Under the pieces are notes generated by a model. It was not told the origin of the DNA. It saw nothing but the letters and a program-made list of their open reading frames with translations, and did not search any database. Of a stretch of 64,000 bases of DNA, positions 11,606-47,118 are shown in pieces. Source of the stretch: Conexibacter arvalis (lineage in GTDB: Bacteria > Actinomycetota > Thermoleophilia > Solirubrobacterales > Solirubrobacteraceae); the NCBI RefSeq assembly GCF_014199525.1, contig NZ_JACHNU010000004.1, forward strand, positions 1-64,000. Reading direction: 5' to 3'. Every line of letters starts with the position of its first letter. The first letter of the stretch is position 1. The position numbers and the translations under genes were made by a program.

Positions 11606-12358
11606 TCAGGAGTCGCCGTCGCCGGCGGGCGCCGACTCGGCGCGCTCCTGCGCCTTGCGCGCCTCGTTGGCCCGCACGGCCTCCGCGGCCGCCTCGTGGC
11701 CGACGAACGGCACCAGCGCGCAGTAGACGAGCTCGGGGAGCATCTCGAGCAGCTCGCCGGCCGCGTCGCGCAGCAGGCGCGTGTAGATGATCTCGTAGAT
11801 GCCGCCGACGACTATGTCGGCCGCGAGCTCGGGCACGACCACGCCGTTGGGCGCCTCGGCGCGGCCGGGCTCGAGGAACTCGACGAAGACGCGCATCGCG
11901 GCGTCGCGCCGGCCGCGCGCCTCCGGGCCGGCGGCGACGACCTCGACGATGCACATGCGCGCGAAGGCGGGCTCGTCGACGAGGTACTGGATGAACGCCT
12001 CCAGGCCCTCGTAGACCCTCCGCGTCCACTCGCTGCCGCCGCCCTCGTACGCCTTCCCGACGCCGGCGAGCATCTGCTCGACGACGGTGTCGTAGGCGGC
12101 GAGGAAGCACTCCTCCTTGTCGGTGAAGTGCTCGTAGAAGGTGCGGCGCGAGAGGCGCGCGCGGGCGATGATGTCGGCAACGGTGGTGGTCGCGTACCCC
12201 TGCTCGGCGACCGCCTCCGCCACGGCCAGCAGCATCCGTTCGCGCTGATTGTGGACGATGAACCGCCGAGGCAGGCCGTGACGGCCGCGCGGCAGGCGTT
12301 GAGGAGACCGATCCGATCCTGCGGGCACCTGGCGACCATAGACACGCTCAGAAAACAT
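11606..12358 (-). CDS. TetR-family regulator (paralog 1)
   Basis: This 250-residue protein has an N-terminal TetR helix-turn-helix (TTTVADIIARARLSRRTFYEHF, about 58-79) and an all-helical ligand-binding C-domain. An N-terminal extension containing GRHGLPRRF is shared with the paralog at 21332-22042. The segment CIVEVVAAGPEARGRRDAAMR recurs in all four TetR proteins of this window, so they are close paralogs. It lies 15 bases behind the next TetR gene on the same strand and may be co-transcribed with it. The ligand and targets are unknown. Confidence 0.88.
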   Translation of the reverse strand: MFSERVYGRQVPAGSDRSPQRLPRGRHGLPRRFIVHNQRERMLLAVAEAVAEQGYATTTVADIIARARLSRRTFYEHFTDKEECFLAAYDTVVEQMLAGVGKAYEGGGSEWTRRVYEGLEAFIQYLVDEPAFARMCIVEVVAAGPEARGRRDAAMRVFVEFLEPGRAEAPNGVVVPELAADIVVGGIYEIIYTRLLRDAAGELLEMLPELVYCALVPFVGHEAAAEAVRANEARKAQERAESAPAGDGDS

Positions 12359-12373
12359 CTATGTCCTCGCTGA

Positions 12374-13075
12374 TCATCCGGGTTCCGGTGCTATTTGCAG
12401 TCCCTCGCGCGGCGCGCCGATCCGGCGTGCGACGCCGGCTCGGACGGCGGTCGCGCGGGCGACGCCCAGGTACGGGGCGAGCCACACGTACATGATGTCG
12501 GGCAGAAGCTGGGGGAGACGAGCGGTGTCGCGTTCGAGGATCCGCGCGTAGATCACCTCGTAGATGCCGCCCACGACGACCTCGGTCATCAGCGGCGGCA
12601 CGTCGGCGGCGGCGTCGTCGACGCGCCCCTGCTCGAGGAAGAGCGCGAACCGCCGCATCGCGTCGTCGCGCCGCGCGAGCGCGCGGGGACCGGCGGCGAG
12701 CACCTCGACGACGCACAGCCAGGCCAGATCGGGCTCCGCGGCCGCGAAGCCGAGGAAGGCGGCGAAGCCGGCCTCGAACGCCTCCTGCCGCGTGCGCTCC
12801 GCGTCAGCCGCGGCGCGCACACGCGCGACGACGCGGTCGACGGCCGCGTCGTAGGCCGCGAGGAAGCACTCCTCCTTGTTGGCGAAGTGCTCGTAGAAGC
12901 TGTTGCGCGAGACGCCGGCGGCCGCGACGACCTTGCTGACCGACGCGGCGCCGTAGCCCTCCTCGCTGACGACGTGGGCCATCGCGGCGATCAGGCGGTC
13001 GCGCCGGGTGCGCACCGGAAAGGCGGCCGTCACGGTCGATGGCGCCGGAGCCAGGTCGATCTGCTGCTGCCCCAC
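12374..13075 (-). CDS. TetR-family regulator (paralog 2)
   Basis: This 233-residue protein has a helix-turn-helix at about residues 45-70 (AASVSKVVAAAGVSRNSFYEHF). Its C-domain carries the family-wide VVEVLAAGPRALARRDDAMR segment. The GTG start at 13075 is fixed by TAGTGT six bases upstream on the minus strand, with TTGTCA 17 bases further. This strong promoter implies a leaderless mRNA. The promoter is back-to-back with a strong plus-strand promoter that drives a non-coding region, so this regulator may control that transcript. Confidence 0.88.
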   Translation of the reverse strand: MGQQQIDLAPAPSTVTAAFPVRTRRDRLIAAMAHVVSEEGYGAASVSKVVAAAGVSRNSFYEHFANKEECFLAAYDAAVDRVVARVRAAADAERTRQEAFEAGFAAFLGFAAAEPDLAWLCVVEVLAAGPRALARRDDAMRRFALFLEQGRVDDAAADVPPLMTEVVVGGIYEVIYARILERDTARLPQLLPDIMYVWLAPYLGVARATAVRAGVARRIGAPREGLQIAPEPG

Positions 13076-13081
13076 GCAGCG

Positions 13082-13110
13082 ACACTAGCCGCTGAGAAGC
13101 CCGTTGACAA
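13082..13110 (-). promoter_or_regulatory. Promoter of TetR paralog 2 (leaderless)
   Basis: On the minus strand, TTGTCA (13105-13110), a 17-base spacer and TAGTGT (13082-13087) form a near-consensus housekeeping promoter. The GTG start follows after 6 bases. Confidence 0.75.
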
Positions 13111-13133
13111 CAGAAGACGGACACGTTTATAGT
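13104..13133 (+). promoter_or_regulatory. Strong plus-strand promoter sharing its -35 with the TetR promoter
   Basis: TTGACA (13104-13109), an 18-base spacer and TATAGT (13128-13133) form the best consensus promoter in the window. Its -35 lies in the palindrome GTTGACAAC, which is also the -35 of the opposing TetR promoter. Transcription should start near 13140, where no convincing protein gene begins. Confidence 0.8.
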
Positions 13134-13139
13134 TTTTAT

Positions 13140-13432
13140 GCGCGAGGACGGCACGGGGCCGCGCAATCCGGCGGAATTGCTGGGCTTTCGTGGTGCTAGG
13201 GGACAGCGCCGAGAGCCCACCGGATCCGACCCGGACCGCCCTCGCGCGGCAGGACGACATGGTGTATCCGCGCGGCGGAGTCGTGCGGGCGGCTCACTGC
13301 TCGACGCCTCTCGTTCGAGCGTTGTCCGCCCGCAGGGTTCCCTCCCCCGGGAACACCCGGGCGCAGGGCTACGTGCCAGCCTTGCGCTCGACGCGGCCGG
13401 GGCGTGCGGATGGGATCCGCCCCGGCCGCGTC
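13140..13432 (+). ncRNA. Candidate structured non-coding RNA of about 290 nt
   Basis: The region starts at the predicted start site of a strong promoter and ends at a 15-bp terminator-like hairpin. No frame in between looks coding. It folds into ordered helices. Arms 13140-13147/13240-13247 enclose 13166-13171/13220-13225, then 13182-13186/13214-13218, then 13192-13197/13205-13210. Next come 13285-13292/13326-13333 with an inner 6-bp stem, 13337-13342/13349-13354 with a C-rich loop, and 13361-13368/13380-13387. I see no RNase P, tmRNA or SRP RNA signature. Some helices could be chance in GC-rich DNA. This is a prediction. Confidence 0.5.
13390..13432 (+). terminator. 15-bp hairpin ending the candidate RNA
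   Basis: Arms 13390-13404 and 13418-13432 are perfectly complementary around a 13-base loop. There is no long U-tract, as is common for GC-rich Actinobacteria. Confidence 0.6.
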
Positions 13433-13518
13433 ATCTTCCGCCTCGCCAGAGCGTCCGGTCCGGGCGCGCTCGCGCCGCGCACCCGCCCGCGAACCGCCCC
13501 CGCCGATCGCGAACGCGA

Positions 13519-13573: not shown

Positions 13574-13984
13574 TCAGAGACGCGCGAGGGCGGCGGCGCG
13601 GATCTCGGCGGGCTCGCCGATCCGTCCGTCGAGGTGGGTGCGACGGAGCATGCCGATCAGACGGCCCTCCTCCGTCACCGGAGCGCTGTCGAGGTCGCGC
13701 TCGATCATCGTCGTCCACGCCTCCGAGATCGGAGCGTTGGCGTCGACGACGGAGACGCCGTCGGCGAGCAGGCCGACGCGGATCGCGTCGGGGTCCCGCC
13801 GCTCGGCGACGATGCGGACGACGTCACGCTCGGACAGCATCCCGACGACGTTGCGGTCGTCGCCGCAGACCGGCAGCGCGTCGACGCCGAACGCGGCAAG
13901 CTTGCGCGCGCCCTCGAGCACGGTCTCGTACTCGCTGACGCACTCTCCGACTCCGGTCACGAACTCCCGTGCCGTCTTGCACAT
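13574..13984 (-). CDS. CBS-domain pair protein
   Basis: This 136-residue stand-alone protein consists of two CBS domains, about residues 10-65 and 73-128. Such pairs bind adenosine nucleotides and act as energy or redox sensors. The LPVCGDDRNVVGMLSERDV core of domain 1 and the SAPVTEEGRLIGMLRR core of domain 2 are typical. A strong TAGGAGGAG ribosome site lies about 6 bases before the ATG, so this mRNA has a leader. No partner enzyme is adjacent. Confidence 0.88.
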   Translation of the reverse strand: MCKTAREFVTGVGECVSEYETVLEGARKLAAFGVDALPVCGDDRNVVGMLSERDVVRIVAERRDPDAIRVGLLADGVSVVDANAPISEAWTTMIERDLDSAPVTEEGRLIGMLRRTHLDGRIGEPAEIRAAALARL

Positions 13985-14228
13985 ACTGCTCCTCCTAAGT
14001 TGCGCCCCCCAATCGGTTGCATTGCGTGCACGGCGTGCGACCGTCGCTGTGCGTGAAAGTCCCCGGTTCCACGCGCGGTCAGCTCGCCGTCGGCGGTTCG
14101 ATGGTAGACGCGACCTCCTCGGAGTCGGCGGATGGGATGCACATCAGCTTCTCAGCCTGGACGCGCGCGTTCAAGTGGCAACCGTCGCAAGCGCACCTCC
14201 GAACGGAGCGCTGGGGCCGCGCGGGGCG

Positions 14229-21331: not shown

Positions 21332-22042
21332 TCAGGCGCTCTTGCGCCGCGCCGCACGCCTGCGCTCGCCGCCGACGGCGGCTTCGGCGGCGGCCTCGGC
21401 CGGGCCGAGGAAGGGCGCCAGGGCGCAGTACATCAGCTGCTCCAGCAGCTCGGGGAGCTCTGCGGTCCGCTCCTGCAGCACGCGCGCGTAGACGATCTCG
21501 AAGATCGCGCCGACGATCGCCTCGGGCATCAGCGGCGGGATCCGCTCCGCGCCGTCGCGCTCGGCGGCGGCGTCGTAGCCGGGAGCGAGGAACTGCATGA
21601 ACTCGCGCATCGCGGCGTCGCGCCTCTGCAGCGCCCGCGGACCGGCCGCGAGCACCTCGACGAAGCCCATTCTCGCCTCGTGCGGATGCTCGGCGAGCGC
21701 CGTCAGCCCCTGCTCGAGCACGCGCCGCAGCCGCTCGGTCCAGCTGCCCTCCTGCTCGTATGCGGCACGGCAGCCGTCGAGCGCCCGCTCGACGACGAGG
21801 TCGAACGCGGCGAGGAAGATGTCCTCGCGGTCGGAGAAGAACTCGTAGAAGGTCTTGCGCGAGACGCCCGCCTTCGCGATCACCGCGCTGACGGTCATGC
21901 CCGCGTAGCCCTCGGCGCCCGCTATCACGATCGCGGCGCCGAGCAGACGGGTCCGCTGCGAGTTCATGACGAACTCGCGCGAAAGCCCGTGGCGGCCGCT
22001 GGGAAGCTGGGCCGGCGTCCAGTCCATGTCCTGCTTTTTCAC
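21332..22042 (-). CDS. TetR-family regulator (paralog 3)
   Basis: This 236-residue protein has a helix-turn-helix near residues 50-75 (TVSAVIAKAGVSRKTFYEFF). Its N-terminal GRHGLSREF extension matches paralog 1, and it has the shared FVEVLAAGPRALQRRDAAMR segment. The C-terminus is Ala/Glu/Arg-rich. An alternative start is the internal ATG five codons downstream. Its upstream DNA has the AT-rich TGTTAAC stretch typical of a regulated promoter. The ligand and targets are unknown. Confidence 0.87.
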   Translation of the reverse strand: MKKQDMDWTPAQLPSGRHGLSREFVMNSQRTRLLGAAIVIAGAEGYAGMTVSAVIAKAGVSRKTFYEFFSDREDIFLAAFDLVVERALDGCRAAYEQEGSWTERLRRVLEQGLTALAEHPHEARMGFVEVLAAGPRALQRRDAAMREFMQFLAPGYDAAAERDGAERIPPLMPEAIVGAIFEIVYARVLQERTAELPELLEQLMYCALAPFLGPAEAAAEAAVGGERRRAARRKSA

Positions 22043-22129
22043 CTGACCCGCTGCACGATGAGTCGGTGCAAGTTAACACACGTCAGCCGACCGACTCGCC
22101 GACGCGACGGGCGATTGCGCCCACTTCGG

Positions 22130-22771
22130 TCACACCGTCGGACGCTCCATACCGAGCAGCATGAAGGTGTAATGAAGCATGTCGGCGTTCAGCTCGGGAA
22201 GGCGGTCGGCCTCGCCGCGGACGATGTGCGAGTAGAGCAGCTCGTAGATGCCGCCGACGATCGCCTGGGACACGAGCCCGGACGGCGGCGCGCCGGCGTC
22301 GCCGAGCTGCTCCCGGTGGTCCTGGATGAAGCCGACGAACAGCCTCAGCGTCTCGTCGCGGCGGGCGAGGCCGCGCGGGCCGGCGGCGAGCACCTCGACG
22401 ATGCCCAGGCGCGCGAACGCCGGCTCCTCGGCCAGCACCTGCAGCAGCGCGTCGAGCCCGCGCTCGAGCCGCAGGTCGGGCTCGGGCGCCTCGGCGCACG
22501 CGCCGCGGACCCGCTCGAGCGCGACGGCGACGATCGCGTCGTAGGCCGCGAGGAAGCAGTCCTCCTTGTCGGAGAATCTCTCGTAGAAGGTGCGGCGCGA
22601 GACGCCCGCGATCTTCAGCACGTCGGCGACCGAGGTCGCGGCGTACCCCTGCGCGGCGACCGTCTGCGCCATCCCGTCGAGCAGGCGCTCCCGCTGCGTG
22701 ACGGGCAGCATCGGGCGCGGTGCCGGCGCACCCTGGTCGTCAGGCTGATCTGCGGTCCTGGTTGGTCGCAT
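22130..22771 (-). CDS. TetR-family regulator (paralog 4)
   Basis: This 213-residue regulator carries a helix-turn-helix near residues 43-67 (ATSVADVLKIAGVSRRTFYERF) and the common IVEVLAAGPRGLARRDETLR segment. The upstream minus-strand DNA contains a TATTGT -10-like element about 40 bases before the ATG, so this mRNA may have a leader. With paralogs 1-3 it forms two TetR pairs in 11 kb. No regulated enzyme gene is obvious nearby. Confidence 0.87.
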   Translation of the reverse strand: MRPTRTADQPDDQGAPAPRPMLPVTQRERLLDGMAQTVAAQGYAATSVADVLKIAGVSRRTFYERFSDKEDCFLAAYDAIVAVALERVRGACAEAPEPDLRLERGLDALLQVLAEEPAFARLGIVEVLAAGPRGLARRDETLRLFVGFIQDHREQLGDAGAPPSGLVSQAIVGGIYELLYSHIVRGEADRLPELNADMLHYTFMLLGMERPTV

Positions 22772-46915: not shown

Positions 46916-46945
46916 TTGCGACTCCGTCACACGACTGCGTATACT
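46916..46945 (+). promoter_or_regulatory. Promoter of the SAM-riboswitch transcript
   Basis: TTGCGA (46916-46921), an 18-base spacer and TATACT (46940-46945) form a good housekeeping promoter. Transcription should start near 46952, just before the aptamer. Confidence 0.7.
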
Positions 46946-46964
46946 CGGCGGCCACATAGCAGTA

Positions 46965-47118
46965 CGCATCCAGAGGGGTGGAGGGAATTGGCCCGACGAA
47001 ACCCCGGCAACCCCCCGCAAGGGGAAGGTGCCAAGTCCAACAGGCAAGCAACAAGCCTGGGAGATGTGGTTCGGCGGTTTCTCCAACCTCTGCCCACGGA
47101 CCCCGGCGGAGGTTTTTT
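46965..47118 (+). promoter_or_regulatory. SAM-I (S-box) riboswitch with terminator
   Basis: The aptamer carries the S-box core in order: AGAGGGGTGGAGGGA (46972-46986), GGCCCGACGAAACCC (from 46990), GGCAACC, an inner hairpin closed by CCCC/GGGG, GGTGCCAA and a small P4-like stem. P1 pairs 46965-46970 with 47063-47068. A terminator follows at 47085-47118. SAM binding should stabilise P1 and allow termination, making an OFF switch. The terminator's 3' arm also holds the ribosome site of the next gene, so translation could be controlled too. Confidence 0.92.
47085..47118 (+). terminator. Riboswitch expression-platform terminator
   Basis: A 10-bp stem (47085-47094 with 47105-47114, one G-U pair) with a 10-base loop runs into TTTTTT (47113-47118). 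This is the only long U-tract terminator in the window. GGAGG (47108-47112) lies in its 3' arm. Confidence 0.88.

Follow-up and report, generated by a model that had tools for sequence, protein, structure and literature searches.

A probable regulatory RNA with an invariant end hairpin between TetR and CBS-domain genes in Conexibacter

The interval that separates a tandem pair of TetR-type genes from a convergent gene for a small CBS-domain protein in Conexibacter raises the question of what is transcribed from the strong promoter at its upstream end, and on what the product might act. The stretch of DNA analyzed, referred to here as the window, comprises 64 kb of a 5.2 Mb genome (G000), and the nearest relatives in the search were six congeners (G001–G006). 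The element was found in G000 and in G001, G003, G004, G005, and G006, which form the set of six species compared throughout; the G002 assembly is 77% complete and the lack of a match there is therefore uninformative. DNA searches returned a single copy in each of the five relatives, and in six of six genomes the element lies between TetR genes and the convergent CBS-domain gene. The reading favored here, which as a whole is assigned a probability of about 0.45, is that the locus encodes a stand-alone small RNA whose 3' module is its active part and which acts by base pairing with the leader of the CBS mRNA.

The upstream end of the interval contains two divergent promoters, one of which reads toward the TetR genes.

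13104–13133, plus strand: predicted promoter of the RNA (TTGACA at 13104–13109, 18-nt spacer, TATAGT at 13128–13133)
13082–13110, minus strand: divergent TetR promoter (TTGTCA, 17-nt spacer, TAGTGT), sharing the palindromic -35 box
12374–13075, minus strand: TetR2, 233 amino acids, with a leaderless GTG start (Pfam TetR_N, 9e-13)
11606–12358, minus strand: TetR1, the second of the two tandem TetR genes (Pfam TetR_N, 2.6e-12)

The palindrome GTTGACAAC at 13103–13111, present in one copy in the window versus 0.09 expected, supplies the -35 element of two promoters, the plus-strand TTGACA-N18-TATAGT and the minus-strand TTGTCA-N17-TAGTGT, as the original prediction had stated, and this shared box couples the two promoters. 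The plus promoter had also been called the best in the window, which a scan of all 64 kb bore out: it matches the sigma-70 consensus at 11 of 12 positions, and the sole other match, at 46916 (9/12), precedes a SAM riboswitch (46916–47070, 87 bits). Its -35 and -10 elements and the spacer part ACARAAGACG are conserved in the six species, a sequence match that points to a sigma-70 promoter belonging to the RNA itself. Spacing within the minus promoter is identical in six species. A leaderless TetR mRNA had been proposed as well, and the GTG start codon at 13075 lies 6 nt past the -10 box, a distance that is the same in five species and thus indicates that the leaderless start is conserved.

Autoregulation is common among TetR genes, and TetR2 may regulate its own promoter in this way. 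A TetR protein bound to the shared palindrome could then control both itself and the RNA as its effector, in which case RNA levels would follow the TetR ligand. Control of this kind is possible but doubtful. It is consistent with the sharing of the -35 box, with the conserved spacing of both promoters, and with the partial conservation of the spacer beyond the hexamers that would be expected of an operator; nevertheless, two overlapping -35 boxes account for GTTGACAAC without any operator, and no second perfect copy of the promoter box occurs at other TetR genes, the perfect match being confined to this locus. The relatives provide an indirect argument. Orthologs of TetR2 (69–72% identity) are present in four congeners and lost in G006, where the TetR that is left shares 78% identity with TetR1 of the window and only 46% with TetR2. 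Both promoters and the RNA are nevertheless kept in G006 without an adjacent TetR2, so the RNA can be retained without control by TetR2. The small RNA of the original proposal is well supported, while its control by TetR is weakened.

Several observations concern the TetR genes and their promoters more generally. On the minus side of the G006 locus (L080), the promoter is followed after 8 nt by a 34-codon frame ending near the TetR1 start. The window contains two tandem pairs of related TetR genes (11606–13075 and 21332–22771), and genes of this type have multiplied in the family, reaching at least 19 matches within individual genomes of genus g15. Five congeners have a related conserved box, WTTGTCAACAGAAAACG, at another site (G003:C1:4608463, G001:C125:30439, G002:C50:5332, G004:C12:276200, and G005:C31:199391).

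The transcript predicted from the plus promoter and the elements of its 3' portion are as follows.

13140–13433, plus strand: non-coding RNA, predicted transcript from just past the -10 box to H3, with homologs in five congeners
13277–13341, plus strand: rod helix, GGAGTC.GTGCGGGCGG pairing with CCGCCCGCA.GGGTTCC, with an inner GCTCGA/TCGAGC hairpin
13337–13354, plus strand: H1 hairpin, GTTCCC-TCCCCC-GGGAAC, an alternative to the end of the rod
13361–13387, plus strand: H2 hairpin, GCGCAGGGCT-ACGTGCC-AGCCTTGCGC, with an invariant loop
13390–13432, plus strand: H3 end hairpin, a probable terminator, with its apex GCGGATGGGAT at 13406–13416

The absence of a credible protein, noted at the outset, is supported by the relatives. 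Indels of a single base displace the frames at three points (within H1, between H1 and H2, and ahead of H3), and the relatives do not keep the ATG at 13138, leaving no conserved reading frame; the open-looking frames in this stretch are attributable to high G+C content. The same stretch of ~295 nt folds far more stably than its composition predicts (-188.5 kcal/mol versus a mean of -155 after shuffling, z = -5.86, a stability reached by none of 200 shuffles), and z-scores for the homologous stretches of the five relatives are -6.1, -4.5, -5.7, -4.3, and -2.5. A strong fold is thus confirmed, although the complete chain of nested helices originally described is the minimum free energy structure of one sequence. 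The relatives back the 3' 100–160 nt, while the 5' half varies in length and pairing, such that the predicted distance from promoter to H3 is 296 nt in G000, 244 nt in G003, 228 nt in G005, 188 nt in G004, and 168 nt in G006. Similarly, a stem closing the 5' end onto the 3' end is favored only in G000, G003, and G004 and was rejected as a universal structure. That the plus strand specifies a functional non-coding RNA is nonetheless considered highly probable.

Evidence for the individual helices is uneven. In H2, 98% of the cells are paired and three pairs are doubly changed, a result that comes from six sequences only. Across H2 and H3 there are eight G-U versus zero A-C cells, which identifies the plus strand, rather than the strand of the CBS gene, as the one under selection. 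Comparative evidence therefore suggests selection for RNA structure on the predicted transcribed strand, with H2 as its clearest expression and weaker indications for the other helices. The rod helix, taken from the RNAalifold consensus of five species, has one doubly changed pair and some broken cells and is less well supported than H2. The sequence of H1 is conserved in five species and deviates in G006. The 3' end of the rod and H1 compete for GGUUCC, and competition between the 5' end and the left arm of H2 is predicted in three species; with competing helices of this sort, the RNA could switch between alternative folds, as far as prediction goes.

H3 behaves differently. Over its 43 nt there is no substitution in six species, one outer base being absent in G006, whereas in the CBS genes of the same genomes just 29% of third codon positions are invariant. 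Since H3 never varies, it provides no covariation, and the compensatory changes anticipated among relatives were found in H2 and not in H3. The hairpin itself is present where a 15-bp terminal hairpin had been described, although its pairing consists of 14 bp plus 4 bp (13390–13432). It likely terminates transcription, despite a weak T-run behind it.

The distribution of the element is narrow. A covariance model of H2 and H3 matched only the Conexibacter-type genus among 399 genomes of the class, under strict filters that can lose weak matches, and the element was not found in the other genomes sampled from the class outside the genus. A search for it on plasmids returned none. A pattern scan of the genome collection recovered three Conexibacter-type genomes and one Hydrogenedentota match, which lacks the hairpins and was rejected as a relative. 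An Rfam search of the interval found no family at gathering level and, at E values up to 5, nothing except two meaningless animal microRNA matches; the 6S covariance model thus had no match in the interval even at that level.

An end hairpin frozen in sequence, beyond what its structure accounts for, is unusual and calls for a binding partner. Rather than an mRNA, this partner could be a protein, such as RNA polymerase or an RNA chaperone, for which the RNA would serve as a decoy or scaffold. This alternative is rated as rather unlikely, even though the freezing of both H3 and the H2 loop is what a protein site would produce and a closed, rod-like fold is favored in three species. Moreover, no 6S RNA scored above the cut-off in the genus, which would otherwise lack a polymerase-binding RNA. 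The element resembles 6S RNA (RF00013) and the actinobacterial Ms1 RNA in its similar size, its strong promoter, and the preference of some members for a closed fold joining the 5' end to a region near the 3' end. It differs in having no match to the covariance model, or in Rfam to 6S or any other family, in a very variable length (~168 to 296 nt), and in its flanks. Ms1 synteny is defined by a HAD hydrolase/oxidoreductase neighborhood (PMC9130861), unlike the TetR and CBS genes found here. The C-rich loop of H1 (UCCCCC) recalls the 6C RNA of Actinobacteria, but there is no Rfam match, and the 6C model has two C-rich loops, whereas here there is one, which is not kept in G006.

Base pairing with an mRNA is inferred to be the most likely mode of action. 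The candidate target lies next to the RNA.

13574–13984, minus strand: convergent gene for a small CBS-domain protein (Pfam CBS, 2e-17), candidate target
13984–14190, minus strand: CBS leader, with blocks GCGACGGTTGYCACTTGAACG and CTGGGAAGCTGA at a constant 12-nt distance, CCCATCCGC, GAGGAGG, and GGGGGCGCAA, conserved in six species
14128–14138, minus strand: AUCCCAUCCGC, the complement of the H3 apex and one of several conserved leader blocks

In the proposed mechanism, a stand-alone regulatory RNA of ~295 nt would be made from a strong promoter of the housekeeping type, whose -35 box is shared with the divergent leaderless TetR gene, and would end at H3. Its conserved working part would be the 3' module, consisting of H1 or the rod, H2 with its ACGUGCC loop, and H3. 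The H3 apex GCGGAUGGGAU would pair with the leader block AUCCCAUCCGC of the convergent CBS mRNA, and this pairing would alter translation or stability of the message.

Orthologs of the CBS protein (66–87% identity) adjoin the RNA in five congeners, and the leader site is situated ~150 nt ahead of the start codon in the same place across species. A perfect complement of 10–14 nt to the H3 apex is present in five of six species (11 nt in G000, 14 nt in G003, 12 nt in G005, and 10 nt in both G001 and G006), matches that are not independent because the species are related; in G004, the leader site carries a substitution that has no counterpart in the RNA. Among background windows of 270 nt, ~1.2% reach 10 nt, 0.5% reach 11 nt, and <0.1% reach 14 nt, figures to be read with the fact that the H3 seed was picked after its complement to the CBS leader had been seen. 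With the whole 3' module as the query, windows as good numbered 37 of 600 in G000 and 0 of 600 in G003. Duplex energies are less striking than these lengths, and that of the H3-leader duplex in G000 is unremarkable, as 20% of windows are equally good. The CBS mRNA is, on this evidence, tentatively put forward as the best target candidate. Two other pairings were rejected: the right arm of H2 with the start codon of CBS (two segments totaling 13 bp, an idea that included a 5'-end sequence of the RNA resembling the CBS start), for which 46–54% of windows are as good, and the C-rich H1 loop with the CBS leader, for which 61–82% are as good. The leader itself has no Rfam match and was rejected as a known riboswitch; its blocks perhaps represent a promoter of another sigma factor together with a regulated leader.

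The sequence common to H3 and the CBS leader, GCGGATGGGAT, might instead be a DNA site for a single regulator, with H3 serving mainly as a two-way terminator and binding site separating the convergent genes. On the plus strand the repeat is direct (13406–13416 and 14128–14138), H3 is a long inverted repeat, and the leader site lies near the two promoter-like blocks with their constant 12-nt spacing, all of which would suit a DNA-binding protein. The selection of H2 as RNA on the plus strand weighs against such a site, as does the expectation that a plain terminator would not stay frozen across 43 nt, and this explanation is deemed unlikely.

Finally, in G001 the promoter and H3 are 1278 nt apart and a gene for a secreted protein of ~240 amino acids (L004, 1792–2511, minus strand), seen in this one species, separates promoter from module, which means that the RNA is not the sole product of the promoter in every species. 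The module might be what is left, as a relic or a processed 3' end, of such a coding transcript whose gene was lost elsewhere. This is very improbable: despite the good ribosome site of the G001 gene, no trace of it is present at the locus in the other five genomes and members of its protein family elsewhere are at most 38% identical, making insertion in G001 the simpler account, and a relic would not remain invariant.

Searches of the literature turned up no work on small RNAs in Conexibacter, nor any on 6S RNA in the class to which it belongs. Like intergenic small RNAs in general, the element has a predicted sigma-70 promoter of its own, no protein, stem-loops with conserved loops, an end hairpin, and a lineage-restricted distribution; unlike them, it matches no described family, it has no clear T-run after the end hairpin, and its transcript and target are predicted. 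It is best filed as a new lineage-specific family within this broad class. A more specific proposal, offered as speculation, is that this genus-specific RNA uses its frozen end hairpin as both terminator and seed for the convergent CBS leader, forming a local unit coupled to the TetR gene through the shared -35 box. Folded, non-coding, and kept in the same place in six related soil bacteria, the element is very probably a genuine regulatory RNA that had not been listed before and that perhaps acts on the neighboring gene; its promoter is clear, its conserved module is well delimited, and a candidate target lies next door.
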